From Streptomyces sp. 8K308 (lineage in GTDB: Bacteria > Actinomycetota > Actinomycetes > Streptomycetales > Streptomycetaceae): a DNA stretch of 64,000 bases. Shown piece after piece: positions 1 through 39,826 of the stretch. The stretch lies in contig NZ_SMKC01000002.1 in the NCBI RefSeq assembly GCF_004348315.1, positions 1 to 64,000 of the forward strand, written 5' to 3'. Each line of letters starts with the position of its first letter. Position 1 is the first letter of the stretch. The notes under the pieces were generated by a model that saw nothing but the letters and a program-made list of their open reading frames with translations, made no database searches and had not been told where the DNA came from. Position numbers and translations under genes: made by a program.

Positions 1-2090
1 GGCAGCAGCGGGATGCCGTAGGCGGTGAGCACCCGGTGGGTGGCGACGTGGTTGAGGGTGACGGTGCGGCGCGGGTCGAGGGCGGTGACCACGTGCTCGG
101 CCGCGGCGTCCTCGTCGATGTCGGCGAAGGCGGGCTGCTCTCCCGGGTGGGCGGCTGTGGCCCGCCACTCGGCGTGTCGGACGGCTTTGGCGAGGGCGCG
201 GACGGCGCGCTCGGCCGAGGGGTAGACGGGGATGCCGCGGGCGGTGAGCGCGGTGGCGAGGTCGTCCAGGGCGAGTTGCGCGACGACCACGGGCTTGCCG
301 GTGGCGGCGTCGGTGAGCGCGGTGTGCAGCGCGGGCGCGAGGTCGGCGAGCAGCCGGGCGGTGTGGTCGCCGGCCGCGCCCGCGGGATCGCTGACGGTGG
401 GGACGACGGCGACGACGGCCGCGTCCACGCCGGGGTCGGCGAGGGCGGTGGCCAGGGCGGCGCCGAAGTCGGCGGGCCTGGCGTGCGAGCCGAGCCCTGC
501 GGGATCGAGGGGGCGCAGGCGGTGGGCGCGGCAGGCGTCGTGGGTGACGAGGCCGAGGGCCTCGGCGTTGCTGACGACGGCGACGCGGGGGCCCTGGGGC
601 AGCGGTTGGTGGGCCAGCAGCAGCCCGATGTCGAGCAGTTCGGTCGCGGTGTCGGCCTCGATCACGCCGGCCTGGCCGAGCAGCGCCGAGACGGTCGGCT
701 CGGGGGCGTGCCCGGCGGGGACGGCGTGGCCGTGCGGCGGGGCGCCGCCGCTGTGCCGGCCGCCGCGCACCACCACGACGGGGGTGCCGGCGGCCGCGGT
801 GCGCCGGGCGATGCGGGTGAACTTGCGGGGGTTGCCGACCGATTCGAGGTACATCAGGGCGACCCCGGTGGCCGGGTCGTCGTCCCAGTACTGGAGCAGG
901 TCGTTGCCCGAGAGGTCGGCGCGGTTGCCTGCGGAGACGAAGGTGGAGAGGCCGGCGCCGCGGCGGGCGAGCTCGTCGAGGACGGCGATGCCGATGGCCG
1001 CCGACTGGGTGAACAGGCCGATCCGTCCCGCGGCCGGCAGCCGGGGCGCGGGGCTGGCGTTGAGCCGGACTTCGGGGTCGGTGTTGATCAGGCCGAAGGC
1101 GTTGGGGCCCACGATGCGCATGCCGTGGGAGCGGGCGAGGTGGACGAGCTCGCGCTGCTCGTCCCTGTCGTGGCCGGCGGCGAGCACCACGAGGCCCGCG
1201 ACGCCGGCGCTGGCGCAGTCGGCGACGGCGGCGGCGACCCGGGGCGCGGGGACGGCGAGCACGGCGAGGTCGACGGGCGCGCCGATGTCGGTGACCCGGC
1301 GGTGGGCGGGGGCGCCGCCGAGCTCGGTCGTGCCCTCGGGCAGCTCGGCGTTGACGGCGTACACGGGCCCGGTGAAGCCGCCGGCGAGCAGGCCGGCGAG
1401 CACGGCGCGGCCGGCGCCTCCTGGGCGGCGTCCGGCGCCCACGACGGCGACGGCGGCGGGGGCGAGGAGGCGGCGCACGGAGCCGGCCTCCGCGCGCTGC
1501 TCGCGGGCGCGCATCACGGCGAGGGAGCGGGCGGTGGGCTCCAGGTCGAGGGTGAGGTGGAGGGAGCCGTCGGCGAAGCTGCGCCGCTGGGAGTAGCCGG
1601 CGTCGGTGAAGACCTTGGCCATCCGGGTGTTGGCGGGCAGCAGTTCGGCCTCGAAGCGGCGGATGCCGCGCTCCCTGGCGACTGCGGCCAGGTGTTCGAG
1701 CAGCACGGAGGCCAGGCCGCGGCCCTGGTGGGCGTCCTGGACGAGGAAGGCCACCTCGGCGCGGTCGGCGGGAGCGGTGGCGGCGCGGCCGTGCTCGTCG
1801 ATCCGGTCGTACCGCACGACGGCGATGAACTCGCCGCCCACGGTGGCGGCGAGTCCGACGCGGTCCACGTAGTCGTGGTGGGTGAACCGGTGCACGTCGC
1901 GGTCGGACAGCCGTGGGTAGGGGGCGAAGAAGCGGTAGTACTTCGACTCGTCGGAGACCCGCTCGTAGAAGGCGACCAACCGGTCGGCATCGGCCGGGGT
2001 GATGGGCCGCAGCCGGGCCGTGCCGCCGTCGCGCAGCACGACGTCGGCCTCCCAGTGGGCGGGGTAGGGCGGCTGGGCGGTCGTCCGCAT
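1..2090 (-). CDS. GNAT acetyltransferase / acyl-CoA ligase (ADP-forming) fusion, partial
   Basis: The gene starts at an ATG at 2090 (MRTTAQPPYPAHWEADV) and runs off the left edge, so its C-terminus is missing. Residues from about 20 to 170 read as a GNAT acetyltransferase fold (LRPITPADADRLVAFYERV, then QDAHQGRGLASVLLEHLA, the acetyl-CoA pyrophosphate loop). After a linker comes a CoA-binding Rossmann domain (VAVVGAGRRPGGAGR) and a succinyl-CoA-ligase-like domain (IGLFTQSAAIGIAVLDELAR). The visible end is entering the expected ATP-grasp region (AYGIPLL). Fusions of this architecture in actinobacteria are protein lysine acetyltransferases related to Pat/PatZ, often controlling acyl-CoA synthetases. 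Whether the ligase half is catalytic cannot be judged because the ATP-grasp region lies outside the window. It is divergent from ptsH. Confidence 0.88.
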   Translation of the reverse strand, partial: MRTTAQPPYPAHWEADVVLRDGGTARLRPITPADADRLVAFYERVSDESKYYRFFAPYPRLSDRDVHRFTHHDYVDRVGLAATVGGEFIAVVRYDRIDEHGRAATAPADRAEVAFLVQDAHQGRGLASVLLEHLAAVARERGIRRFEAELLPANTRMAKVFTDAGYSQRRSFADGSLHLTLDLEPTARSLAVMRAREQRAEAGSVRRLLAPAAVAVVGAGRRPGGAGRAVLAGLLAGGFTGPVYAVNAELPEGTTELGGAPAHRRVTDIGAPVDLAVLAVPAPRVAAAVADCASAGVAGLVVLAAGHDRDEQRELVHLARSHGMRIVGPNAFGLINTDPEVRLNASPAPRLPAAGRIGLFTQSAAIGIAVLDELARRGAGLSTFVSAGNRADLSGNDLLQYWDDDPATGVALMYLESVGNPRKFTRIARRTAAAGTPVVVVRGGRHSGGAPPHGHAVPAGHAPEPTVSALLGQAGVIEADTATELLDIGLLLAHQPLPQGPRVAVVSNAEALGLVTHDACRAHRLRPLDPAGLGSHARPADFGAALATALADPGVDAAVVAVVPTVSDPAGAAGDHTARLLADLAPALHTALTDAATGKPVVVAQLALDDLATALTARGIPVYPSAERAVRALAKAVRHAEWRATAAHPGEQPAFADIDEDAAAEHVVTALDPRRTVTLNHVATHRVLTAYGIPLL

Positions 2091-2177
2091 GGCATCAGCG
2101 TACGGTTGGGTCAGCCGGGACGGCGGCCCGGCGTACAGCACAACCGTTCCACCCTGTTCGAACCGAAGGGCACCATC

Positions 2178-2477
2178 ATGGTTGAGCGACGCGTCACCAT
2201 CGGCTGGGCGGAGGGGCTGCACGCCCGGCCCGCCTCGATCTTCGTCCGGGCCGCGACGGCCACCGGCGTGCCGATGACCATCGCCAGGAAGGGCGGCACT
2301 CCGGTGAACGCCGCGTCGATGCTCGCGGTGCTGAGCCTGGGCGCCGAGGGCGGCGAGGAGGTGGTGCTCGCCTCGAGCGGCGCGACCGCCGAGGACGAGG
2401 CCGCCGCCGAGGCGGCGGTCGACCGGCTCGCACGGCTGGTTTCCGAGGGGCTCGAGGAGCTGCCGGAAACGGTCTGA
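2178..2477 (+). CDS. ptsH: PTS phosphocarrier protein HPr
   Basis: This 99-residue protein is the general phosphocarrier of the sugar phosphotransferase system. It passes phosphate from enzyme I (PtsI) to the sugar-specific IIA components in the cytoplasm. The active-site histidine is His15 in GLHARPAS. A serine at residue 47 (NAASMLAVLSLG) sits where Ser46 of other HPr proteins is found, although the surrounding sequence is not the strong HPr-kinase type of Firmicutes. ATG at 2178 gives a normal HPr length. The gene stands alone between a divergent acetyltransferase fusion and a convergent GntR regulator. No enzyme I or crr gene is in the window. Confidence 0.95.
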   Translation: MVERRVTIGWAEGLHARPASIFVRAATATGVPMTIARKGGTPVNAASMLAVLSLGAEGGEEVVLASSGATAEDEAAAEAAVDRLARLVSEGLEELPETV

Positions 2478-2583
2478 GAAATCCGCCGGGCCAGGGGGCC
2501 TGAATTTCGGGCAACAGAATTACGGGGGCGCGATTCCGGCGATGGAATTCGCAACCCTTTCGCACATGTGTATACGGCCGCTG

Positions 2584-3261
2584 TTAAATCTGGCCGCGCA
2601 CCGTGTTTACAGCAGGTTTCGGGCTTCTCACGGCGCCGGTCCTGGTCTGCTTGCGGGCCGGGGTCGACCGTTCGAGCTGGGCGGCCGACAGGGCCCGCGC
2701 CCGCTCCGCGTCGCCCCGGGCGATGGCGTCCACCAGGGCGCCGCGCTCCTGCCACAGCACCACGGCGCGGGAGACGGGCTCGCCCGCGTACAGCCAGGTG
2801 ATCTTGCGCCGCAACTGCACCAGCATGGTGGTCAGGCCCGGGCTGCAGGTGGCCTGGGCCACCGTCTCGTGGAACCAGTCGCCGAGCGACCGCAGGTCCG
2901 ATTCCTGCCCCTGGCCTGCGCGCTGGCGCCCAAGGCGCACGAGCCCGCGCAGGACCTTGAGGTGCGCCTCCGTGCGCCGCTGCGCCGCGCGGGCCGCGCC
3001 AAGCGGCTCCAACAGCGCCCGCACGTCGAGCAGATCGGCCGCCTCGCGCTCCCCCGGCTGGGCCACGCAGGCCCCGGCGTGGCGCCGCGAGGTGACGAAC
3101 CCCTCGGACTCCAGGGTGCGCAGCGCCTCGCGGACCGGCACCCGGGACACCCCGTAGCGCTGGGCCAGCTGCTCCTCGGCGAGCCGTGCGCCCGGGGGCA
3201 GGACGCCGCTCACAATGTCGTCACGGATCGCCGTGCATACCGCGTGCGCGGAGATACGCAT
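2584..3261 (-). CDS. GntR family transcriptional regulator, FCD subfamily
   Basis: This 225-residue regulator has an N-terminal GntR winged helix (residues about 5-70: LAEEQLAQRYGVSRVPVREA, then LRTLESEGFV). A C-terminal all-helical FCD ligand domain contains acidic and histidine residues typical of a metal/carboxylate pocket (DVRALLEPLGAARAAQ, LGDWFHETVAQAT). The family senses small organic acids or sugar derivatives and usually represses a neighbouring operon. It faces ptsH tail to tail and has its own upstream region of about 190 bases, so its target is not obvious from position. The last 25 residues are basic and look disordered. The ATG start at 3261 fits the usual start just before the first helix. 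Confidence 0.85.
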   Translation of the reverse strand: MRISAHAVCTAIRDDIVSGVLPPGARLAEEQLAQRYGVSRVPVREALRTLESEGFVTSRRHAGACVAQPGEREAADLLDVRALLEPLGAARAAQRRTEAHLKVLRGLVRLGRQRAGQGQESDLRSLGDWFHETVAQATCSPGLTTMLVQLRRKITWLYAGEPVSRAVVLWQERGALVDAIARGDAERARALSAAQLERSTPARKQTRTGAVRSPKPAVNTVRGQI

Positions 3262-3398
3262 GACAAACCCCCACAGAATAGCCGGCGTCAGCCCTGTTAC
3301 ATTTCTACCGGGTCACTCAACCGAACTGTATGGCAAAAACCCGGGAATGCCGATAGCGCCCCTGGAAAACCCGGTGCCTTTCGGACGTTTACGCGGAA

Positions 3399-3440
3399 CG
3401 CCGGCGGCTCCGGGTCCCGAAGGGCCCGGAGCCGCCGGCG
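3399..3440 (-). terminator. Rho-independent-like hairpin after the M16 peptidase operon
   Basis: A perfect 16-base inverted repeat (3399-3414 and 3425-3440) flanks a 10-base loop just downstream of the M16 stop codon at 3456. It is very GC rich and lacks a long T-run, as is usual for Streptomyces terminators. It separates the peptidase operon from the GntR gene's upstream region. Confidence 0.8.
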
Positions 3441-3455
3441 GCTGACGGCTCGGTC

Positions 3456-4844
3456 TCAGCCGTCGATCACCGTCACCTCGCCGATGCCGAGCGCCCGCAC
3501 CGGCTCCGCGATCTGCTCGGCGTCGCCGACCAGCACGGTCACCAGGCGGTCGGTCGGGAAGGCGCGCGCCACCGCCGCCGAGGCCTCGACGGTGCCGGTC
3601 TCCGCCAGTCGGACGTACAACCGCGCCTGGTAGTCGTCCGGCAGTTCCTCCTCGACCTGGTCGGCCAGGGTGCCGGCGACGGCCGCCGCCGTCTCGAAGC
3701 TCAACGGCGCCACGCCCACCAGGAACTGGACCGCCGCGTCCCGCTCCTCGTCGGTCAGCCCCTCGGCCGCCAGCGTGCGCAGCACCTGGAAGAGGTCGGC
3801 CAGCGCCGGCCCCGTCACGTCGGTGGCCACCGAGCCACGGATGCCGAGCAGCGAGAGCCCGGTGCCGTCGGCCCGGGACCGCAGCACCTGGGCGAAGGCC
3901 CGGATGCCGTAGGTGTAGCCCTTCTCCTCGCGCAGCACCCGGTCGAGGCGGGAGGTGATGGTGCCGCCGAGGCAGTAGACGCCGAGCCGCTGCGCGGCCC
4001 ACACCGGGTCGTGCCGGTCGGGCCCGGTGCGGGCGATCAGCAGCTGGGTCTGGACGGAGCCGGGCCGGTTCACGATGACGACGCGGCCGGTGTCGTCGGG
4101 GACGGACGGCTCCCACGCGACGGTGGCCGGCGGCTGGCCGGTCCAGGCGCCCAGGGTGTCCTTGAGCACCGCGTCCAGGTCAATGCCGCTGAGGTCGCCG
4201 ACGATGACCACGGCGGCGGAGGCCGGCCGCACGTGCGCCTCGTAGAAGGCGCGGACGGCCTTGGCGTCGATCCGCTCGACGCTGGCCGCCGTGCCCTGCC
4301 GGGGCTTGGACATGCGGGAGTCGGTCGGGAACAGCGTGTCGTAGAGCGCCATCGCCGCACGCCGGCCCGGGTTGCCGAGCTCGTGCGGGATCTCGTCGAG
4401 GCGGTTGCGCACCAGCCGCTCGATCTCGTGCTCGGGGAAGGCCGGGGCCCGCAGCGCGTCCGCCAGGAGCAGCAGCGCCCGGTCGAAGCGGGAGGCCGGG
4501 ACCTCGAGGGAGACCCGGACACCGGGGTGGTCGGCGTGGGTGTCAAGGGTGGCGCCGCAGCGCTCGAGCTCGGCGGCGAACTCCTCGGCGGTGTGCCGGT
4601 CGGTGCCCTCGGACAGCGCCCGGGCCGTGATCGTGGCGACGCCCTCGAGGCCGGCCGGCTCGGCGGCCAGCGGCGCGGTCAGGTTGAGCTCGACGGCGAT
4701 GACCTGCTGTCCCGGGCGGTGACTGCGCAGCACCGTCAGGCCGTTGGGCAGGGCGGTGCGCTCCGGCGCCGGGAACGCCCAGGGCCTGGGCTCCCCCGCG
4801 GTCGGCCGCGGGTGGAGCTGCATGCTCGCGGTGACGTCGCTCAC
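3456..4844 (-). CDS. M16 family peptidase subunit lacking the zinc motif
   Basis: This 462-residue protein belongs to the M16 (pitrilysin/mitochondrial processing peptidase) family. Where active members have HxxEH it reads GLEGVATITARALSEGTDR, so the zinc ligands are absent. It should therefore be the non-catalytic partner, as in MPP-alpha or the two-subunit bacterial M16B enzymes. Both M16 repeat halves are recognisable (ALPNGLTVLRSHRPGQQ; later LGVYCLGGTITSRLDRVLRE, the family's glycine-rich stretch). The start is taken as the GTG at 4844, which overlaps the stop of the upstream catalytic partner by four bases. This indicates translational coupling and co-assembly. A strong hairpin follows the gene. 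Confidence 0.88.
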   Translation of the reverse strand: MSDVTASMQLHPRPTAGEPRPWAFPAPERTALPNGLTVLRSHRPGQQVIAVELNLTAPLAAEPAGLEGVATITARALSEGTDRHTAEEFAAELERCGATLDTHADHPGVRVSLEVPASRFDRALLLLADALRAPAFPEHEIERLVRNRLDEIPHELGNPGRRAAMALYDTLFPTDSRMSKPRQGTAASVERIDAKAVRAFYEAHVRPASAAVVIVGDLSGIDLDAVLKDTLGAWTGQPPATVAWEPSVPDDTGRVVIVNRPGSVQTQLLIARTGPDRHDPVWAAQRLGVYCLGGTITSRLDRVLREEKGYTYGIRAFAQVLRSRADGTGLSLLGIRGSVATDVTGPALADLFQVLRTLAAEGLTDEERDAAVQFLVGVAPLSFETAAAVAGTLADQVEEELPDDYQARLYVRLAETGTVEASAAVARAFPTDRLVTVLVGDAEQIAEPVRALGIGEVTVIDG

Positions 4845-9914: not shown

Positions 9915-10036
9915 GGCCGCCACGATAGCCGTGGCGGCCGATCCGTTCGTCACTGGCGGCAGACCTCGCCGGGCAGGTTGCGCACGGGGTTCGCTTCACC
10001 CCTGTGGGGGGAGACGGCTGAGCCGCCTGGGTCAGG

Positions 10037-31255: not shown

Positions 31256-33262
31256 CTATGAGGCGCCCTCGGCCGCCGCGTCCCGCGCGGCCGCGTCGAT
31301 CGCGGCAAGTGAGCGCCGCACCTGATTCCGGTCGGTGGTGTACCAGAAGTCCGGCATCGAGCTCCGTAGGAATCCGCCGTAGCGCGCCTTGGCCAGCCTG
31401 GGATCGAGCACCGCGACCACGCCGCGGTCCCCGGTGGCCCGCACCAGCCGGCCGGCCCCCTGCGCCATCAGCAGCGCGGCATGGGTGGCGGCCACGGCCA
31501 TGAAGCCGTTGCCGCCGGCCTCCTCCACGGCCTTCTGCCGGGCGCTCACCAGCGGATCGTCCGGGCGCGGGAAGGGAATCCGGTCCATCACGACGAGCTG
31601 GCAGCTCGGCCCCGGCACGTCCACCCCCTGCCAGAGCGAGAGCGTGCCGAAGAGACAGGTCCGCGCGTCCTCCGCGAAGGAGCGGATCAGCTCGCCCAAC
31701 GTCTCCTCGCCCTGCAGCAGGATCGGCACGTCCAGGCGCCCCCGCAGCTCCTCCGCCGCCGTCTGCGCGCCGCGCATCGAGGAGAAGAGCCCCAGCGTGC
31801 GCCCGCCGGCCGCCTCCACGAGCTCGGCCAGCTCGTCGATCATGTCCGCGCGGCTGCTGTCCCGCCCGGGCAGCGAGAGGTGCTGCGCAACGTAGAGGAT
31901 CCCCTGCTTCCGGTAGTCGAACGGGGACCCCACGTCGAGGCCCTTCCACTGCGGAAACTCCTCGTCGCGCTGCCCCTCGGGGGCCAGGCCGAGCGAGGCG
32001 CCCACCCCGTTGAAGTCCCCACCGAGCTTGAGCGTCGCCGAGGTGAGCACCACTGAGCGGTCCTCGAACAGCTTCTCCCGCAGCAGCCCGGAGACCGAAA
32101 GCGGCGCCACCCGCAGCGACGCCCCGTACCGGTCGTGCCGCTCGTACCAGACGACGTCGAACTCGGAGCCCTGCACGATGCGCTCGGACACCTCCTGCAC
32201 CGTCTCGATCGAGGCCAGCGCCTGCTTGCGCACCGCGTCCTCGTCGGCCACGGAGGCGTCCCGCGTGTTCCCCAGGGCGGTGATCGCGGCGCGGGCCGCG
32301 TCCCGCAGGGCCGTCAGCGCGTAGCCGAGGTCCTCGGGGACCTCCTCGAGCCGGCCGGGCAGGGCCAGCTCCATCAGCCGCTCGAAGCCCTCGGCCGCCG
32401 TGGCAAGCCGGTCGGCCGTCTTCTCGTCGATCAGCTTGGCGGCCCGCCGCACCGCCCGCCCGACACCGCCCGGCGTCAGCTCGCCGGTCGCCACCCCGGT
32501 GACCCGGGACACCAGCTCGTGCGCCTCGTCCACGATCAGCACGTCGTGTCCCGGCAGCACGGGCGCGCCCTCGATGGCGTCGATCGCGAGCAGCGCGTGG
32601 TTGGTGACGATCACCTCGGCCAGCTTGGCCCGCTCCCGCGCCGCCTCGGCGAAGCACTCGGCGCCGTACGCGCACCTGCTGGCGCCCAGGCACTCCCGGG
32701 AGGACACCGACACCTGGGCCCAGGCCCGGTCCGAGACGCCGGGGGTGAGGTCGTCCCTGTCCCCCGTCTCCGTCTCGTCCGACCAGTCCCGCAGCCGCAA
32801 CAGGTCCTTGCCCAGCCTGCTGGTGGGCCCGCCGGCCGACTCGGCCACCTCGAACTGGTTGAACAGCCCCTCCTCGTCGTCCTGTGGCACGCCCTCGTGG
32901 AGCCGGTGCAGGCAGAGGTAGTTGGACCGGCCCTTGAGGGTGGCGAACTCGGGGCGACGACGCAGCAGCGGATGCAGCGCCTCCACCGTGCGCGGCAGGT
33001 CGCGCTCGATGAGCTGCCGCTGAAGCGCGAGGGTGGCCGTGGCCACCACCACCCGGTCCCCCGTGGCGATGGCGGGCACCAGGTAACCGAGCGATTTGCC
33101 GGTGCCGGTGCCGGCCTGGACCAGCAGATGCGTGCCGTCCTGAAACGCCTCGGCGACCGCCTGCGCCATCGCGACCTGCCCGGGCCGCTCGGCTCCTCCC
33201 ACGGCGGCGACGGCGGCGTGCAGCAGATCGGTGAGGGTGGGCTTCCCTGATGTGGCAGTCAT
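31256..33262 (-). CDS. DinG/XPD-type ATP-dependent DNA helicase
   Basis: This 668-residue superfamily 2 helicase of the DinG/YoaA group has Walker A QAGTGTGKS at about residue 50, DEAH in VLIVDEAHELVS, and the C-terminal motif VI region MAQGAGRLVRATGDRG. Cysteines in NYLCLHRL and ECLGASRCAYGAEC provide four ligands for the 4Fe-4S cluster typical of XPD-like enzymes. Such enzymes unwind 5'-3' and resolve R-loops or forks after damage. It is convergent with lexA but has no evident SOS box of its own. ATG at 33262 fits the family. Confidence 0.92.
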   Translation of the reverse strand: MTATSGKPTLTDLLHAAVAAVGGAERPGQVAMAQAVAEAFQDGTHLLVQAGTGTGKSLGYLVPAIATGDRVVVATATLALQRQLIERDLPRTVEALHPLLRRRPEFATLKGRSNYLCLHRLHEGVPQDDEEGLFNQFEVAESAGGPTSRLGKDLLRLRDWSDETETGDRDDLTPGVSDRAWAQVSVSSRECLGASRCAYGAECFAEAARERAKLAEVIVTNHALLAIDAIEGAPVLPGHDVLIVDEAHELVSRVTGVATGELTPGGVGRAVRRAAKLIDEKTADRLATAAEGFERLMELALPGRLEEVPEDLGYALTALRDAARAAITALGNTRDASVADEDAVRKQALASIETVQEVSERIVQGSEFDVVWYERHDRYGASLRVAPLSVSGLLREKLFEDRSVVLTSATLKLGGDFNGVGASLGLAPEGQRDEEFPQWKGLDVGSPFDYRKQGILYVAQHLSLPGRDSSRADMIDELAELVEAAGGRTLGLFSSMRGAQTAAEELRGRLDVPILLQGEETLGELIRSFAEDARTCLFGTLSLWQGVDVPGPSCQLVVMDRIPFPRPDDPLVSARQKAVEEAGGNGFMAVAATHAALLMAQGAGRLVRATGDRGVVAVLDPRLAKARYGGFLRSSMPDFWYTTDRNQVRRSLAAIDAAARDAAAEGAS

Positions 33263-33305: not shown

Positions 33306-35075
33306 TCAGCGGGTGTGCAACGGATTCGCGACAGTCCCGTGCACGACGGCGTGCGGGCGCTGCGCCCGGTCCCGGTAGCCGTCGAGGTGCAGCCGGTTGC
33401 GGTTGAGGCAGAGCCGCTCGATGCACGGGGTGAGCAGGTCGAACGTCTCGAAGCGGTGCTTGAGCTCGGGGAAGCGGTGCTGGTAGTGGAGGATCTCCGC
33501 CCGGACGAGTGACCAGAAGTCGACCTCGGCGACCCCCAGTTCCCGCTCGCACAGTGGGGCGAGGTAGCGGAACACCCCGACGAAGAGCCCGGAGTGGATG
33601 AACTGGGTCAGGAATCCCGGCGGCTCGGTCAGCAGCACCTCGCGCACCTGCCGCGGTATGGCGTCGAACTCGGGCAGCGGCTCGGCGCTCAGGTTGACGT
33701 CGTCCACGAAGTCCTTGACGGCGAGCCTGACCGGGATGTCCCGCTCGTCGAAGACCACCAGCGTGTTCTCGCCGTGCGGCGAGAAGACCGTGCCGTAGCG
33801 GTAGAGGAAGTGCAGCAGCGGCGGCAGCAGCGCCGCGAACAGGCTGCGCAGCCAGCTGCGGGTTGAGAGCCCTGACCGCTCGACCAACTCGGCGGTCAGG
33901 GAGCGGCCGGTGGTGTCGGTCCAGAGCAGCGCGGCGAGGGTGCGGGCCCGCTCCCCGGCGCCGAGGCCGGGCCCGATCGGCTCCCGCCAGATGCAGCCGA
34001 GCAACTCCCGGTACTGGTAGGGGACAGTGGGGAGCCGGTCGTAGAGCGGGTGCTCGACGGTGACGGAGGCGATCTCGCCGAGCAGCACGGGCCTGGTCTC
34101 CTCGGCCAGGAACGGGTCGCCGTCGCGCACCGCGTGCACCCAGCCGGTGACGGCGGGGGCGGCAAGCGTGCGCTCGGTCGGTAGGCCGCGCCACACCAGG
34201 GTGTTGAGGATGGACAGCGGCAGCTTGACGGTGCGGGCGTGCGGACGGCTGACGTTGAGGAAGGTGCGGATGGACTGCTGCGGCAGCCGCAGGTCGCCGT
34301 CGGTGGGCAGGGATATCAGCGCGCCGGCGGCGATCTGGGGGGCGAAGAGGGGGGCGATCTTCTCGTCCCACTGCCAGGGGTGGACGGGCAGCCAGAGGTA
34401 GTGCGCGGGGTCACGCCCCTGCTCGGCGACGGTGCGGGCGAACGCCTCCCGGGTGGCGGCGGCCAACTCGTCGGCGTAGAGCGCCTCGGGCGAGGCCAAC
34501 GTGGATATGCCGCGGTAGCGGGCGAACTCACGGTGCGCCGCCAGCCAGGGCAGCGGGCGCGCGGTGCGCGCCTCTGGGGCCCAACGGGCGGCGTCGGCGG
34601 CGGAGAAGCCGAGCCGGCCCTTGTTCGCCACCAGCCACGGGTGGCCGGTCTGCCTGCCCTCGAGCGCGGCGTGGTCCAGCTCGGCGAGCTCGGCGGCGCT
34701 TATCGGATCGGCCGCCAGGGCCACGTCGGCGCTGAGGGTGGCGGTGAGCTCGCGGATCAGGTGGCCCGTGGTGTCGCCGGCGAGGCCGAGCAGCGTGTCG
34801 TGGGCGCGGACCACGAACTCGAGCGGGTCGGCGGCGGGCGTCAGGCTCGCCGGGTCCACGCTCCAGTGGCCGTAGGCGCCGCGCCTGGCCCGGAACCGGT
34901 AGCCGAGGTCGGAGGCGACACGCAGTTGATAGGCGTCGGCCGGCGGGCCGTCCGGGCGGGGGCTGACGATGCCCTCGTAGGCGAACTCACCGATCATCTT
35001 GGCGAGCAGTCTGCGGGCCGCCAGTTCCCAGGCGGTCTGGCCGGCGGTGGCCGGCCTGGCGGGAAACGGGGTCAC
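33306..35075 (-). CDS. IucA/IucC family siderophore synthetase (downstream copy)
   Basis: This 589-residue NRPS-independent siderophore (NIS) synthetase condenses a carboxylic acid (typically citrate or a derivative) with an amine using ATP. Diagnostic stretches are GHPWLVANKGRLGFS (the GHP substrate loop), LWLPVHPWQW, the nucleotide region SIRTFLNVSRPHARTVKLPL, and SPHGENTLVVFDERDIP. The FhuF-like iron-reductase domain is in the C-terminal region (AEILHYQHRFPELKHRFE). It is the last gene of a three-gene minus-strand siderophore locus and sits 43 bases upstream of the DinG gene. IucC-type enzymes use an activated monoamide as acceptor; its exact class needs phylogeny. Confidence 0.92.
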   Translation of the reverse strand: MTPFPARPATAGQTAWELAARRLLAKMIGEFAYEGIVSPRPDGPPADAYQLRVASDLGYRFRARRGAYGHWSVDPASLTPAADPLEFVVRAHDTLLGLAGDTTGHLIRELTATLSADVALAADPISAAELAELDHAALEGRQTGHPWLVANKGRLGFSAADAARWAPEARTARPLPWLAAHREFARYRGISTLASPEALYADELAAATREAFARTVAEQGRDPAHYLWLPVHPWQWDEKIAPLFAPQIAAGALISLPTDGDLRLPQQSIRTFLNVSRPHARTVKLPLSILNTLVWRGLPTERTLAAPAVTGWVHAVRDGDPFLAEETRPVLLGEIASVTVEHPLYDRLPTVPYQYRELLGCIWREPIGPGLGAGERARTLAALLWTDTTGRSLTAELVERSGLSTRSWLRSLFAALLPPLLHFLYRYGTVFSPHGENTLVVFDERDIPVRLAVKDFVDDVNLSAEPLPEFDAIPRQVREVLLTEPPGFLTQFIHSGLFVGVFRYLAPLCERELGVAEVDFWSLVRAEILHYQHRFPELKHRFETFDLLTPCIERLCLNRNRLHLDGYRDRAQRPHAVVHGTVANPLHTR

Positions 35076-35088
35076 GGGCTCTCCTCCT

Positions 35089-35124
35089 CGGTCGCGGGAT
35101 CGGTCGCGCGATCGGTCGCGGGAC
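35089..35124. repeat. Three tandem 12-base repeats between siderophore genes
   Basis: CGGTCGCGGGAT, CGGTCGCGCGAT and CGGTCGCGGGAC follow one another in the spacer just upstream of the second synthetase. They differ at one or two positions. No function is known. Confidence 0.7.
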
Positions 35125-35150
35125 AGGGGCTCGGGCCGGCCGCCGGGCGC

Positions 35151-35792
35151 TCAGCGCTCCCTGAGCATCAAGGCGGCACGTTTCTCCGGGAGCAGGACCT
35201 CGCCGACCCGCCGGAAGCCGGCCGCGCGGAACGCGGCGATCGAGGCCGCGTTGCGCACGTCGGGCTCGGCGACCACGCGCCCACAGCGCGGCCGGTGGCG
35301 CAGCACGAGATCGGCGACGGCGCGCAGCAGGGCGGCGCCGACGCCGCGGCCGCGGTCCTCAGGGTCGCCGATCAGCAGGTGCAGCCCGGTGTCGTGCGGG
35401 CGGGACGGGTAGTGGTGGGCGAGCGGGTCGAGGTCGGCCCGGTAGATCTCCCAGTAGCTCATCGGCCGTCCGTCGAGCTCGCCGAGGCAGGGCACGCTCC
35501 GGCCGTCCCCGACGAGCTGGGCCCGAACATGCGCCGCGGTGCGCTCGGGAGGCCCGGCGAGCGACCAGAAGGCGTCGACCACCGGATCGTTCATCCAGGT
35601 GGCGAGGAGCTCGAGGTCACGGGCCGGCAGCGCGGGGACGAGGCGCAACGCCCCGGCCGGCGTGTCGATCGGCCCCCAGTCGGCGATCCGGCCGAGCGGG
35701 TGGGCCGGGTCGGCACAGTCCCCCTCAGCGTCCTGGTCCCCTTCGGGCTCCGCGGTGGCGGCGCCGCGGGGCCGGGTGTCGGCGTCGGACAT
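35151..35792 (-). CDS. GNAT N-acyltransferase of siderophore locus (IucB-like)
   Basis: This 213-residue acyltransferase resembles the IucB/RhbD/AlcE family that acylates hydroxylamines in siderophore biosynthesis. Visible features are LELLATWMNDPVVDAFW, MSYWEIYRADLDPLAHHY (the substrate-binding WEIY-x-D signature) and the acetyl-CoA loop DRGRGVGAALLRAVADLVL. The first 35 residues are acidic and probably disordered. It lies between the two synthetase genes, 10 bases from the upstream one, so it is co-transcribed. Its usual substrate is an N-hydroxylated diamine. No hydroxylase gene is present in the window, so substrate supply is unresolved. Confidence 0.88.
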   Translation of the reverse strand: MSDADTRPRGAATAEPEGDQDAEGDCADPAHPLGRIADWGPIDTPAGALRLVPALPARDLELLATWMNDPVVDAFWSLAGPPERTAAHVRAQLVGDGRSVPCLGELDGRPMSYWEIYRADLDPLAHHYPSRPHDTGLHLLIGDPEDRGRGVGAALLRAVADLVLRHRPRCGRVVAEPDVRNAASIAAFRAAGFRRVGEVLLPEKRAALMLRER

Positions 35793-35802
35793 GGCGGCTC
35801 CT

Positions 35803-37737
35803 TCAGGCGGCGGCCAGCGGGTTGGGGACCGTCACATAGACGGACTGGCCGTCCACCGGGCCGACGAGCTCGTCGAGGCCCTGCAGGCGGGTGAGCATGT
35901 TGGCCTTGCAGCGGAGGGTGGCCGACTCCAACAGGTGGACCACCAGCGACGAGACGGGAGTGCCGCCCGCCCCACGGGTCTCCTCGGTCAGGAAGCGGCG
36001 GAAGGCGGCCAGCAACAGGCCCTCGTCGGCCAGCTGTTGGGCCCCGAAGGCGCCGATCAGGCCGAGGACGTTGTTGATGCCGAGGTAGTAGGCGAAGCGC
36101 TCGTCCGCCACCTCGTCGGCCACGAAGGTGTCGGAGCGCTCACCGATTCCGGGCAACCGGCGCTCCAGAGCCGCGCGGTGCGAGGCGCGGAAGTAGTACC
36201 CCTGGTTGTCGCGGTAACGGCCGCCGGCCGGCCAGCCCTCGGCGTCGAGCAGGACCAGCGTGTTCTGCTGGTGGGCCTCGAGCGCCACGCCCGCCCGGGC
36301 GTCGAGCCAGAGCAACGGCCGCACCACCGTACGCAGATAGCGCAGCAGCCACTCGGCGGCCACGGCCGGGGTGCCGCGCCCGGTCCGGTCGGCGATGGCA
36401 CACACCACGTCGGCCAGGCGGGAGCGCAGCTCGGCCTCGGGGCGGCCCGGCCAGGGCCGGGGGCCGGTGAGCGCCGCCAGGCACAGGGCGTCGTCCCGCG
36501 GGCCGAACGGGTTGTGCCGCAGGACGGTATCGAGTCCTGGCACGGGCCGGCCCTGGGCGTCGTCGACGGCGAGCCAGGCCGGGTCGCGCACGATGTCGAA
36601 GCCCGGTCCCGTCGGGAAGGCGGCGCGCCACTGCTCGCCGAGCCCACTGGAGAGCAGCCGGTGCACCTCGACGCCCCGGTGCAGTTCCTTGCGCAGGTTC
36701 TCCCGGCGGGAGTTGGTGATGCGCAGGGCGAGCGAGAGCTTGAGCATCGCTGCCGCGCCCGGCCGGTGCACGGTGCGGACCGAGGACGTGGGGTACCACG
36801 GTTCGCCGTGCTCGCCGAGGTCGTACAGCAGCCCGGCGCCCAACAGCGCGGCCACGGACGGGCGGTGCACCACGTCACGGGCCTGCCAGGGGTGCAGCGG
36901 GAGCGGCACCGTGCCGGGCGGGACGGCGAGCCCGGGGCCGGCGAGACGGGCGGCGAGCACCTCGGCCGGCACCGTCTCGCCGCGCTCCGTCCAGGCGGAG
37001 TCGGCGGCGAGCACCGAGCGGTCGACGGCCATCCAGTGCAGCGGGAACGAGCCGCGCAACTCGGGCGACGCGCGCCGGGCCTCGTGGCCGGCCAGGCCCT
37101 CGCGGCTCTTGGGGGTGGGGTGCAGCGGGTGGCCGAGCAGCAGGGACTGCTCGGCGTCGAGGAAGGCGTGGCCGTGCGCGGAGGGCCCCGGGGCGCGGCG
37201 ATGCTCGGCCAGGAAGCCGGCGGTCCGCCGCACCGAGTCGGCGACCCGGCCGACCATCGCGGTGGCCTCGGCGCCGCCCTGTCTCGCGCCGCCCCGGTGC
37301 GCCGCCTCGCGGCCGAGCAGCGCGGCCAACGTGACCGCATCCACCGGGGCGGCGGCCGGCGGCGCGCCCTCGATGCGCACGGCGCCGAAGCGGTGCCAGC
37401 CGGTGGCCGACCAGTACCGCAGGCCGACGCGGAGCACGACGCCCGAGGCGGCGAGCGGGACGAACAGGGTGCGCCCGGCCGGCCTGACCGTGCCGGTCTC
37501 CCTGATCCAGCAGCGCAACAGGCTCTCCACGGTGGCCGCGTCGGCCGCCGCCTCGACGAGCGGATGCTCGAGCGGATCGGCGGCGTCCGCCGCCACCGCG
37601 CCCTCCTGCTCGGCCGGCTGAGACCGCTCGCCCCTCGGCTGCCGGGGAATGGCCGACTCCATGAGCCGGGCCGACCGGCGGCGGAAGGGCTGGCGCTCGC
37701 GGCCCGGGCTGCGGTCGGGACGAGGGCGTCCGTTCAT
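35803..37737 (-). CDS. IucA/IucC family siderophore synthetase (upstream copy)
   Basis: This 644-residue NIS synthetase, the first gene of the siderophore locus, should activate citrate (or a similar acid) as an adenylate. Family blocks are LLGHPLHPTPKSREGL, LPLHPWQARDVVHRP, TSSVRTVHRPGAAAMLKLSL, ALRITNSRREN, and ALEAHQQNTLVLLDAEG. The first 70 residues are basic and low-complexity. ATG at 37737 has AGGTGAGAG just before it. It is divergent from a secreted protease over 276 bases containing a CCCCGGT/ACCGGGG inverted repeat (37867-37885). I could not find an iron-box in this spacer. Confidence 0.92.
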   Translation of the reverse strand: MNGRPRPDRSPGRERQPFRRRSARLMESAIPRQPRGERSQPAEQEGAVAADAADPLEHPLVEAAADAATVESLLRCWIRETGTVRPAGRTLFVPLAASGVVLRVGLRYWSATGWHRFGAVRIEGAPPAAAPVDAVTLAALLGREAAHRGGARQGGAEATAMVGRVADSVRRTAGFLAEHRRAPGPSAHGHAFLDAEQSLLLGHPLHPTPKSREGLAGHEARRASPELRGSFPLHWMAVDRSVLAADSAWTERGETVPAEVLAARLAGPGLAVPPGTVPLPLHPWQARDVVHRPSVAALLGAGLLYDLGEHGEPWYPTSSVRTVHRPGAAAMLKLSLALRITNSRRENLRKELHRGVEVHRLLSSGLGEQWRAAFPTGPGFDIVRDPAWLAVDDAQGRPVPGLDTVLRHNPFGPRDDALCLAALTGPRPWPGRPEAELRSRLADVVCAIADRTGRGTPAVAAEWLLRYLRTVVRPLLWLDARAGVALEAHQQNTLVLLDAEGWPAGGRYRDNQGYYFRASHRAALERRLPGIGERSDTFVADEVADERFAYYLGINNVLGLIGAFGAQQLADEGLLLAAFRRFLTEETRGAGGTPVSSLVVHLLESATLRCKANMLTRLQGLDELVGPVDGQSVYVTVPNPLAAA

Positions 37738-38013
37738 CTCTCACCTGTCTGTGCTGGTGCTTCGTTGCTCCATCCGTAGTAACGACCGCGTGCACCCGGG
37801 AACACGGCCTGTGGCAAGATCCTTTGGGCGATCAGCGAAGCGCGCGCCGTTTGCCGAGCCTTCGCGCCCCGGTCGGGAACCGGGGACCCGCGTGCCACCG
37901 TCCACTTGGTCACCGGCATAGTGGAGGTCGCCTCCGTGCCGGCGGGATGGCGGACAAGCACTCCGAGCATCCCCGAGCAATACCCAGTGAGACCATCCAG
38001 GGGGAGTTCACCC

Positions 38014-39240
38014 ATGTCATCGATACGCAGGCGGCCTTCGCGTCGCCGCGCCGCGCTCGCCGCCACCGCCATGGCGGCCTGTCTCGCGCTCACCGCAACC
38101 GCCTGCAACGGCGACGACGAGTCGAGCGACGACGCGCAGGCACCGACCGACAGCTCCTCGGAAGGAGCCGAGGGGGGTCGTGAACTCCAGGACGTGATCG
38201 ACAGCCTGCCCTTCGACTTCGACGTCGACGCCTGGCTCGACGGCGGTTGGGAGAACTGGGACCAGGACACCTGGCTCCGCGAGGTCGGCGACTTCGTCAA
38301 CCCGATCATCGAGGGCCTGTGGGACGCCGACCGCATGGGTCAGGCCGAGGACCCGGAGCAGTCGATCGACGACGACCAGATCGAGGAGGACCCGGACGCG
38401 CCGCAGGCCGACGACCCGATGGCCGACCGGGGCATCACCGACCCCGAGCCGCTGCCCGTCGAGGCCGTTCCGGTGCAGACGCCGTACACGGAGAACGGCG
38501 CGCCGATCGGCAAGGTGTTCTTCGACAGCCCGGAGGGACCGATGGTCTGCTCGGGCACCGTGATCGCGGACCCGAACAACCCGGGCCGCTCCAACCTGGT
38601 GGCCACCGCGGGCCACTGCGTGCACGCGGGCGTCGGCGGCGGTTGGTACCGCAACATCAGCTTCGTGCCGGCGTACAACAACAACGGCCTGAGCGCCGCC
38701 GAGGCCAACGACCCGGCCAACGCCGCCGAGGTCGCCCCGTACGGCGTCTTCTGGGCCAACTACGTGTCGACCACGCAGTACTGGATCGACAACGGCACCA
38801 CCACGGGCGGCGAGGGTGCCCACGGTGACTTCGCGGTGCTGTCCGTGGAGCCGGAGGACGGCAGCGGCCGCTCGCTCGAGGAGACGGTCGGCGCGGCCGT
38901 CGAGGTCAACTTCGACGCCCCGGCGGTCTCCGGTCTCGGCTCCGTCTCGCTCTACGGCTTCCCGGCGGCCGAGCCCTACGACGGCGCCCTCATGTACAAC
39001 TGCAACGGCGACCCGGGCCGGCTGTCCATCGACGCCACCATGCCGGTGCTCTACTGGGTCGGCTGCACCATGACCGGCGGTTCGTCCGGCGGCCCCTGGC
39101 TGCGGACCGGTGACGACGGGAACCCGGAGCTGATCTCGGTCAACTCTATCGGCCCGCTGGAGAGCACGTGGCTCGCCGGGCCGCGGCTCGACGTGGAGGC
39201 GCGCGACGTCCTCGAGTACGTGAGCCAGCAGGCCGGCTGA
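38014..39240 (+). CDS. Secreted trypsin-like serine protease lipoprotein
   Basis: This 408-residue extracellular protease has a signal peptide (basic RRRPSRRR then hydrophobic core) ending in a lipobox-like ALTATAC, so Cys31 may be lipidated; the twin-arginine pattern is weak. Residues 35-155 form a very acidic spacer. The S1 catalytic domain follows, with His201 (VATAGHC), Asp272 (GAHGDFAVL) and Ser358 (GGSSGGPW). Cysteines 179/202 and 330/351 are placed for disulfides. It is likely tethered to the outer membrane face. The substrate is unknown. ATG at 38014 has GGGGGAG upstream. A strong terminator follows. Confidence 0.9.
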   Translation: MSSIRRRPSRRRAALAATAMAACLALTATACNGDDESSDDAQAPTDSSSEGAEGGRELQDVIDSLPFDFDVDAWLDGGWENWDQDTWLREVGDFVNPIIEGLWDADRMGQAEDPEQSIDDDQIEEDPDAPQADDPMADRGITDPEPLPVEAVPVQTPYTENGAPIGKVFFDSPEGPMVCSGTVIADPNNPGRSNLVATAGHCVHAGVGGGWYRNISFVPAYNNNGLSAAEANDPANAAEVAPYGVFWANYVSTTQYWIDNGTTTGGEGAHGDFAVLSVEPEDGSGRSLEETVGAAVEVNFDAPAVSGLGSVSLYGFPAAEPYDGALMYNCNGDPGRLSIDATMPVLYWVGCTMTGGSSGGPWLRTGDDGNPELISVNSIGPLESTWLAGPRLDVEARDVLEYVSQQAG

Positions 39241-39304: not shown

Positions 39305-39730
39305 TCAGCCGCCGGTGGCGACGGCGCTCGGGCTCCGCTCGGTGCGGCTGCCGGGCACCGGCTCCGACGGGTCATTCCCCAGCCGGACGACGCGGTTGGC
39401 GCCGTCCACGTGGACGACGGTCGGCCGCAGCCGGCGGGCCTCGGCGTCGTCCACCTGGGCATAGCTGATGAGGATGACGAGATCGCCGGGCTTGACGAGG
39501 TGGGCCGCCGCGCCGTTGATCCCGATGACGCCGCTGCCCCTGGTGCCCTCGATCACATAGGTCTCGAGGCGGTTCCCGTTGTCGATGTCGACAATGTGGA
39601 CCAGCTCGCCGGGCAGCAGGTCGGCCGCGTCCATCAGGTCGGCGTCGATGGTGACCGAACCGACGTAGTGCAGGTCCGCCTCGGTGACGGTGGCACGGTG
39701 GATCTTCGACTTGAACATGGTGCGCAACAC
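39305..39730 (-). CDS. panD: Aspartate 1-decarboxylase
   Basis: This 141-residue pro-enzyme makes beta-alanine for pantothenate and CoA. It self-cleaves between Gly24 and Ser25 ([10 protein letters not shown]) to form the pyruvoyl group. The start is the GTG at 39730 ([15 protein letters not shown]), which puts the cleavage site at the canonical position and has GGGAG upstream. An ATG four codons later is the alternative. The C-terminus is about 15 residues longer than in E. coli and serine/proline rich. No other pantothenate gene is nearby. Confidence 0.95.
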
Positions 39731-39826
39731 GATGCACGTTCTCCCTGGTCGGAGGGGTCGCGCTCCCGGGAGGGATACACGCCGCCACCAGCATACGCGG
39801 GCGGCCACGCGCCCCTCCCGAGCCGG

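Follow-up and report, generated by a model that had tools for sequence, protein, structure and literature searches.

A dinG-linked siderophore synthetase locus and a pyk-linked decarboxylase-hydroxylase pair as probable halves of one citrate-hydroxamate pathway in Streptomyces

The rhizobactin 1021 genes of Sinorhizobium meliloti lie contiguously on pSymA and encode six enzyme types, in the order Dat-like aminotransferase (Dat), pyridoxal phosphate (PLP) decarboxylase, type A nonribosomal peptide synthetase-independent siderophore (NIS) synthetase (NISA), GNAT acyltransferase, N-hydroxylase and type C NIS synthetase (NISC). The pSymA record (L218) is unannotated at this place, and we take its genes to be rhbABCDEF. 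A six-gene iuc operon of Haloferax volcanii is reported to be iron-regulated and has been proposed to yield schizokinen (PMC7407949). We compared these systems with a three-gene locus of Streptomyces sp. 8K308 at positions 33306-37737 of the window, which is the whole 64,000-nucleotide stretch analyzed (contig NZ_SMKC01000002.1, positions 1 to 64,000), and named it the dinG locus after its downstream neighbor. This locus probably represents half of an NIS pathway of the rhizobactin-1021/schizokinen type, which Streptomyces keeps in two places, the other half being a decarboxylase-hydroxylase pair beside the pyruvate kinase gene (pyk). Such a pathway would be of a known kind, and its split arrangement would be unusual and widespread in the genus.

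The locus consists of the following genes, given from the first to the last in the direction of transcription:
35803-37737, minus strand, IucA/RhbC-like (type A) NIS synthetase of 644 aa, NISA (PF04183 and PF06276; IucA_IucC E 1e-62)
35151-35792, minus strand, IucB/RhbD-type GNAT acyltransferase of 213 aa (PF13523, Acetyltransf_8, E 3.1e-50)
33306-35075, minus strand, IucC/RhbF-like (type C) NIS synthetase of 589 aa, NISC (PF04183 and PF06276; IucA_IucC E 1.9e-70)

Since the intergenic gaps are just 10 and 75 bp, the three genes are probably one transcription unit. An earlier sequence-only reading had named this trio as the core of a citrate-hydroxamate pathway, and open reading frames, Pfam and PDB matches agreed with it. 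In each synthetase Pfam found an FhuF domain beside IucA_IucC. The closest PDB sequence to NISA was IucA (5jm7, E 1.5e-53); NISC matched DesD first, then AlcC-type proteins and IucC, and the acyltransferase was closest to MbtK and BH2621. None of the three proteins scored over an NCBIfam cut-off. NISA was 39-52% identical to the synthetases of linked rhb-type clusters and kept the EAHQQN motif. The window GNAT was 37-42% identical to the linked rhb-type GNATs versus 31% to DesC of the same strain, and NISC was 42-51% identical to rhb-type synthetases versus 36% to DesD. In the comparison with pSymA, the two synthetases and the GNAT were 39-42% identical. The locus thus combines type A and type C synthetases with an IucB/RhbD-type GNAT, as in the rhizobactin 1021/schizokinen type. 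It is not a des cluster, since DesC and DesD of the strain are encoded on another contig (C314) and belong to other subfamilies.

Homologous genes were found linked in other organisms. In S. meliloti pSymA and in Halorussus (L217), all six homologues are contiguous in the order given above. Picosynechococcus has the same six-gene order with an MFS gene inserted before NISC, and Rhodococcus holds five homologues together, without Dat and with NISC divergent. The dinG locus follows this order minus genes 2 and 5, the decarboxylase and the hydroxylase, and these two adjoin each other at pyk. Together, the dinG and pyk loci of the window strain hold the rhizobactin-1021-type gene set except for Dat, which has been lost; unlike on pSymA, the decarboxylase and hydroxylase genes are not linked to the synthetases. 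The two Streptomyces halves likewise correspond to the gene set of the haloarchaeal iuc operon. The 40 plasmid records listed for NISA and the 40 listed for the pyk-linked hydroxylase have 27 in common; these were mostly haloarchaeal and several were near-identical. For either half, the haloarchaeal records listed rank with the best plasmid matches outside Streptomyces.

The strain genome (7.76 Mb, 703 contigs) was searched for the remaining steps. The sequence-only reading had noted that a hydroxylase and a diamine-forming enzyme were missing nearby, and the whole 84.6-kb contig of the window (C222) indeed contained no match at E <= 0.001 to PF13434 (hydroxylase), PF00282 (PLP decarboxylase) or TIGR00709 (Dat); all matches were on other contigs. 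Its suggestion of a monooxygenase elsewhere held. PF13434 had five matches genome-wide, of which two were full length (C466 and C488) and three spanned about one third of the profile (E 1e-11 to 1e-7). The closest PDB entries of both full-length proteins were 'Monooxigenase' 6xbb, a desferrioxamine hydroxylase and a putrescine N-hydroxylase. The genome therefore encodes two candidate diamine N-hydroxylases. Each is coupled to a PLP decarboxylase, giving two unlinked pairs. Both pairs belong to decarboxylase and hydroxylase families in common with desABCD. The aerobactin pathway uses lysine as the amine and an IucD-type lysine N6-hydroxylase, with no decarboxylase. The C488 pair is complete with a 4-bp overlap. 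The end of C466 falls inside the decarboxylase of the second pair, which is followed by a pyruvate kinase and a response regulator gene (names from sequence reading). The N-terminal 206 residues of this decarboxylase were found at the end of C223 and were 71% identical to the S. harbinensis protein, the pieces being compared and not joined. Directly upstream of this decarboxylase lies an HxlR-type regulator gene (L034 on C223, 777-1160, minus strand), possibly a local regulator.

The dinG locus was then compared among the 80 best named relatives of NISA, all from Streptomyces. A GNAT gene followed NISA in 79/80 named loci and dinG followed the locus in 75/80, the rest being cut by contig ends. 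A Dat-like aminotransferase gene lay between the protease and NISA in 65 of the 75 determinable loci, with none in nine and a remnant in one; the L134 copy scored 494 bits on TIGR00709, over the cut-off. NISC was matched in 60/76 determinable loci, including one partial match scored as present (L132), and was missing in 16. The Dat and NISC counts omit 5 and 4 of the 80 loci, respectively, which are truncated by contig ends. The loci with NISA and GNAT and no IucC-like gene before dinG were L069, L070, L072, L078, L080 and 11 other named loci, and L236 (G141) was of the same form.

No match to DesA or DesB at E 1e-8 was found in the 80 dinG loci, most of which reached 10 kb on each side; decarboxylase and hydroxylase genes accompany the locus in none of them, and the pathway genes are not contiguous. 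Therefore, the lack of a hydroxylase at the dinG locus is a property of the genus and not of the window strain alone. An assembly gap as the cause of the missing genes was ruled out by the same state in the 80 relatives. This genus-wide state would fit a product that is acylated without N-hydroxylation and is not a hydroxamate, as the sequence-only reading had considered. Such a product is very improbable, because the GNAT is of the IucB/RhbD kind, its relatives adjoin a hydroxylase in the linked clusters, and the genome encodes two such hydroxylases. Neither that proposal nor the accompanying one of a new small siderophore is required by the data. The genus-wide occurrence of the locus, its usual form with Dat, and the conservation of one unlinked pair across the genus go beyond that reading.

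A subset of 20 of the 80 named genomes was used to examine the hydroxylase context. The C466-type hydroxylase was present in 15/20, with the decarboxylase in 14 and with pyk in the fetched stretch in 13. Contiguous desABCD was found in 14/20. S. harbinensis is arranged like the window strain, with counterparts of both pairs (hydroxylases 78-79% and 77% identical), and no des-type pair was found in it. A tree built from 44 hydroxylases placed the pyk type in one clade (94/100) and the des type in another (100/100); deeper forks stayed open and the distant reference rows were long branches. A recent copy of desB as the origin of the pyk-type hydroxylase was ruled out by these separate clades. 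In S. lichenis (L195, 1930-6271), Dat, the decarboxylase and a pyk-clade hydroxylase stand in a row away from pyk. An intact pyk pair was found in 10/11 genomes with Dat versus 4/9 without (Fisher p = 0.05, with several close relatives in the sample).

Five of the 20 genomes carry a separate DesA-NISA-DesB-NISC cluster (L178, L179, L180, L183 and L181, the last with Dat). In all five, Dat is missing at dinG and so is an intact pyk-type pair, as though possession of a complete cluster had let the split pathway decay. Four of the five genomes without a C466-type hydroxylase are of this kind, and the fifth is S. mutomycini (G110).

The pyk-type hydroxylase was found in 268/295 Streptomyces genomes. 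It was called at a best E stronger than 1e-165, a limit lying between two groups of values, one weaker than 1e-145 and the other stronger than 1e-168; the G014 protein (1.9e-169) was scored present. Of the 295 genomes, 181 had a known state of the window-type synthetase (a first survey covered 101 and a second 80), and most of the 181 had an NISA counterpart of 61-90% identity. Five candidates were scored per genome in the hydroxylase survey, and 12 and 15 in the two synthetase surveys. The synthetase was absent in 8/27 genomes without the pyk-type hydroxylase versus 5/154 genomes with it (p = 7e-5, ignoring kinship), in a 27:154 ratio that is enriched for hydroxylase-lacking genomes because all 15 remaining ones were deliberately included in the second survey. 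Among assemblies of at most 100 contigs, the corresponding numbers were 4/10 and 0/98 (p = 4e-5). The genomes scored without the synthetase were G014, G027, G028, G032, G050, G092, G150, G152, G159, G162, G188, G286 and G308, of which G188 has a fragment with a stop and G286 and G308 have only a 53-54% homologue. When this homologue was counted as a synthetase, the difference was 6/27 versus 5/154 (p = 0.002), and 3/10 versus 0/98 in assemblies of at most 100 contigs (p = 6e-4). This co-loss, uncorrected for kinship, supports a shared pathway of NISA and the pyk-type hydroxylase.

An iron-box (DmdR) consensus was used for all site counts. Neither the 80 dinG loci nor the surroundings of the window locus contained a site with at most 5 mismatches; the only such site in the window is at 10032, far from the locus, and five shuffles of the window gave none. 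As a control, 14/14 des stretches had a site with at most 4 mismatches; in 12 stretches it preceded the desA match by no more than about 350 bp. Linked NIS clusters had a site with at most 2 mismatches in 6/7 cases. Iron-box-like sites were also found upstream of the C488 desA (2 mismatches) and of the C314 desC (1 mismatch), and the C488-kind pair of S. harbinensis has one too. No site was found in 13 of 15 pyk-clade stretches (L194 with little upstream sequence), the exceptions being one 5-mismatch site in L185 and a 2-mismatch site before Dat of S. lichenis. The C466 and C223 stretches contained none.

Because C488 and C314 each have an iron-box-like site while C466 and the window locus have none, the C488 pair would go with desCD and the C466 pair would be left for the dinG locus. 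The des locus on C314 contains desC and desD (L030, 2280-4683) with no desAB alongside, and the C488 pair lies at 5732-8713 of L029. The desferrioxamine genes in the lineage of the window strain thus look split between C488 and C314. There is a precedent for unlinked genes of one siderophore in S. coelicolor, where desJGH is described as a second desferrioxamine locus (PMC12161575), although its genes differ from those at the dinG and pyk loci. SCO5799, SCO5801 and SCO201x had no occurrences in the main text of that paper.

The iron-regulated pair, C488 here and desAB elsewhere, could instead feed the dinG locus in trans, with N-hydroxycadaverine shared by desferrioxamine and an arthrobactin-like citrate product and with the pyk pair serving otherwise. 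The C488 pair is complete, and in the same tree its hydroxylase grouped with the hydroxylases of linked NISA-GNAT-hydroxylase clusters from Rhodococcus and Streptomyces (93/86). Arthrobactin is reported as detected in S. katsurahamanus, where its genes are not known (PMC6856088), and G079, G099, G221 and G262 keep the synthetase with at best a des-type hydroxylase (best E about 1e-90). However, the iron-box-like site common to C488 and desCD is absent from the window locus, which fits C488 serving the C314 desCD, where desAB is missing. The synthetase was also missing in 5/10 genomes that have at most a des-type hydroxylase, versus 8/171 others. We therefore consider supply from the iron-regulated pair unlikely.

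The preferred reading remains a pathway split between dinG and pyk. It is favored because linked clusters elsewhere hold both halves together, because the pyk-type hydroxylase occurs in most Streptomyces genomes and tends to be lost together with NISA, and because the pyk clade is separate from des in a genus where most of the 20 genomes also have complete desABCD. In addition, neither half is iron-boxed in most genomes, unlike des, and Dat adjoins the pyk-clade pair in S. lichenis. Finally, schizokinen has been tentatively reported from Streptomyces extracts. In the passages available, it was identified tentatively by mass spectrometry and linked to biosynthetic gene cluster (BGC) 1.15 of S. 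anulatus RLA103 (PMC11865988), and in S. mutomycini SL02 it was presumably assigned to BGC2.11 (PMC13136089). These passages give no gene coordinates and name no hydroxylase or decarboxylase locus, and the assigned clusters are probably the dinG NIS locus.

We infer the following steps from the enzyme families. The dinG half would supply Dat (lost in the window strain), the IucA-like synthetase, the GNAT and the IucC-like synthetase, and the pyk half, on C466 with the 5' part of its first gene on C223, would supply a translationally coupled PLP decarboxylase and flavin N-hydroxylase. The decarboxylase would make the diamine, which with Dat would be 1,3-diaminopropane from diaminobutyrate. In the window strain, the source may be diaminobutyrate from the ectoine enzyme EctB, or ornithine or lysine converted to putrescine or cadaverine; the single TIGR00709 match over the cut-off in the strain genome is an EctB-like protein on C305. 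The hydroxylase would then N-hydroxylate the diamine and the GNAT would acetylate it. Citrate would be joined to a first unit by the IucA-like enzyme and to a second by the IucC-like enzyme. The product is most likely a schizokinen-like citrate bis-hydroxamate. The refutation named by the sequence-only reading has two parts, a hydroxylase encoded elsewhere and a product identical to a known siderophore, and the two hydroxylases found elsewhere bear out the first. Its core type and its hydroxylase elsewhere stand.

Several observations weigh against this pathway. The window locus shows no trace of a Dat gene, and NISC is missing in the 16 loci mentioned. The pyk-type hydroxylase is absent in 19/168 synthetase-bearing genomes. 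The outcome of the co-loss test varies with the scoring and takes no account of kinship. In S. mutomycini G110, Dat, NISA, GNAT and NISC are all present and no hydroxylase exceeds 31% identity, which is in tension with the schizokinen reported from strain SL02 of this species. The decarboxylases and hydroxylases do not reach NCBIfam cut-offs, and only Dat/EctB matches do so; on NF052646 (diaminobutyrate decarboxylase), the decarboxylase family scored 189-325 bits where the cut-off is 900, and the 472 bits of the Halorussus control were likewise too few. The promoter-like element described below is not seen at the pyk pair, which gives no sign of co-regulation of the halves.

The losses of Dat in 10/75 determinable loci (one as a remnant) and of NISC in many species could also mean that the dinG locus is a decaying relic with little or no product. 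We regard a relic as improbable, since the three window genes are open, full length and retain the residues invariant among linked-cluster homologues, NISA counterparts persist in most of the genomes surveyed, and the promoter element is strongly conserved.

This element was found upstream of the first gene of the operon:
37779-37806, minus strand, promoter-like element CGTGTT-N16-CGTTAC, 42 bp upstream of the first gene and the only copy in the 64-kb window

Its conserved form is CGTGAT-N16-CGTTGG. The pattern CGTG[AT]T-N16-CGTT lies upstream of the dinG operon in 70/78 regions (77 named loci and the window), and a scan of the 80 loci (both strands, 3.25 Mb) gave 71 occurrences, 69 of which are operon-upstream copies. 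Among spacers of 10-22, only 16 recurred, with single hits at 11, 15 and 21. The conserved form resembles the consensus of the developmental sigma factor BldN, given as CGTAAC-N16-CGTTGA (PMC2375139), and would be a BldN-like promoter; the window copy is a weaker match. No promoter element common to the dinG and pyk halves was found.

The dinG NIS locus presumably corresponds to SCO5799-SCO5801 in S. coelicolor, and we take SCO0492-SCO0499 to be the coelichelin genes. In the second mycelium of surface cultures, SCO5799 (log2 0.4/1.3/1.8) and SCO5801 (0.8/1.8/1.3) were rising, while desferrioxamine SCO2782 (1.1/-3.7/-3.2) and SCO0492-SCO0499 fell at later points (PMC3610822).

As a tentative extension, which we hold to be possible and somewhat doubtful, most Streptomyces would have a second citrate-hydroxamate pathway beside desferrioxamine, split between dinG and pyk and lying outside the DmdR regulon, and a BldN-like developmental promoter would drive the dinG half. 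Its chelator might serve aerial growth or sporulation, possibly with another metal or purpose than vegetative iron scavenging. If the two loci belong together, this second siderophore pathway is directly testable genetically, and the missing iron box raises the question of when and why its product is made. Unlike this split set without iron boxes, the haloarchaeal operon is a single one and reportedly iron-regulated. In synthetase-first searches, the dinG locus looks like an incomplete siderophore cluster and the synthetase-free pyk pair is missed; reading a cluster as lacking a gene thus needs a whole-genome and genus-wide check. No paper naming the pyk-linked pair was found in searches of open-licence papers.

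About 120 bp between the protease and the NIS operon (window 37738-37905 and relatives) are strongly conserved across the genus. This stretch includes AAGGATCTT in 51/78 regions and the BldN-like element. Upstream of the locus, Rfam gave three matches far below gathering scores, and a known RNA leader was rejected on this basis.

The flanking genes are the DinG and protease genes of the sequence-only reading, and PanD:
31256-33262, minus strand, DinG-like helicase (Pfam), a flank outside the pathway, 43 bp downstream of the NIS locus
37906-39240, plus strand, secreted trypsin-like protease, divergent and context only (open reading frame without a Pfam match; protease call from sequence reading)
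39305-39808, PanD (Pfam)

PanD is the only decarboxylase near the NIS locus and makes beta-alanine, no diamine. Genome-wide, IucA_IucC had five matches, namely the two in the window, a desD-like one on C314 and two on C332 that form a divergent pair. The C332 synthetases are about 510 aa each (L032, 458-1999, minus strand, and 2042-3574, plus strand). No hydroxylase or GNAT was seen in the 9 kb read there; an MFS transporter gene lies nearby, and the pair possibly belongs to another NIS pathway.

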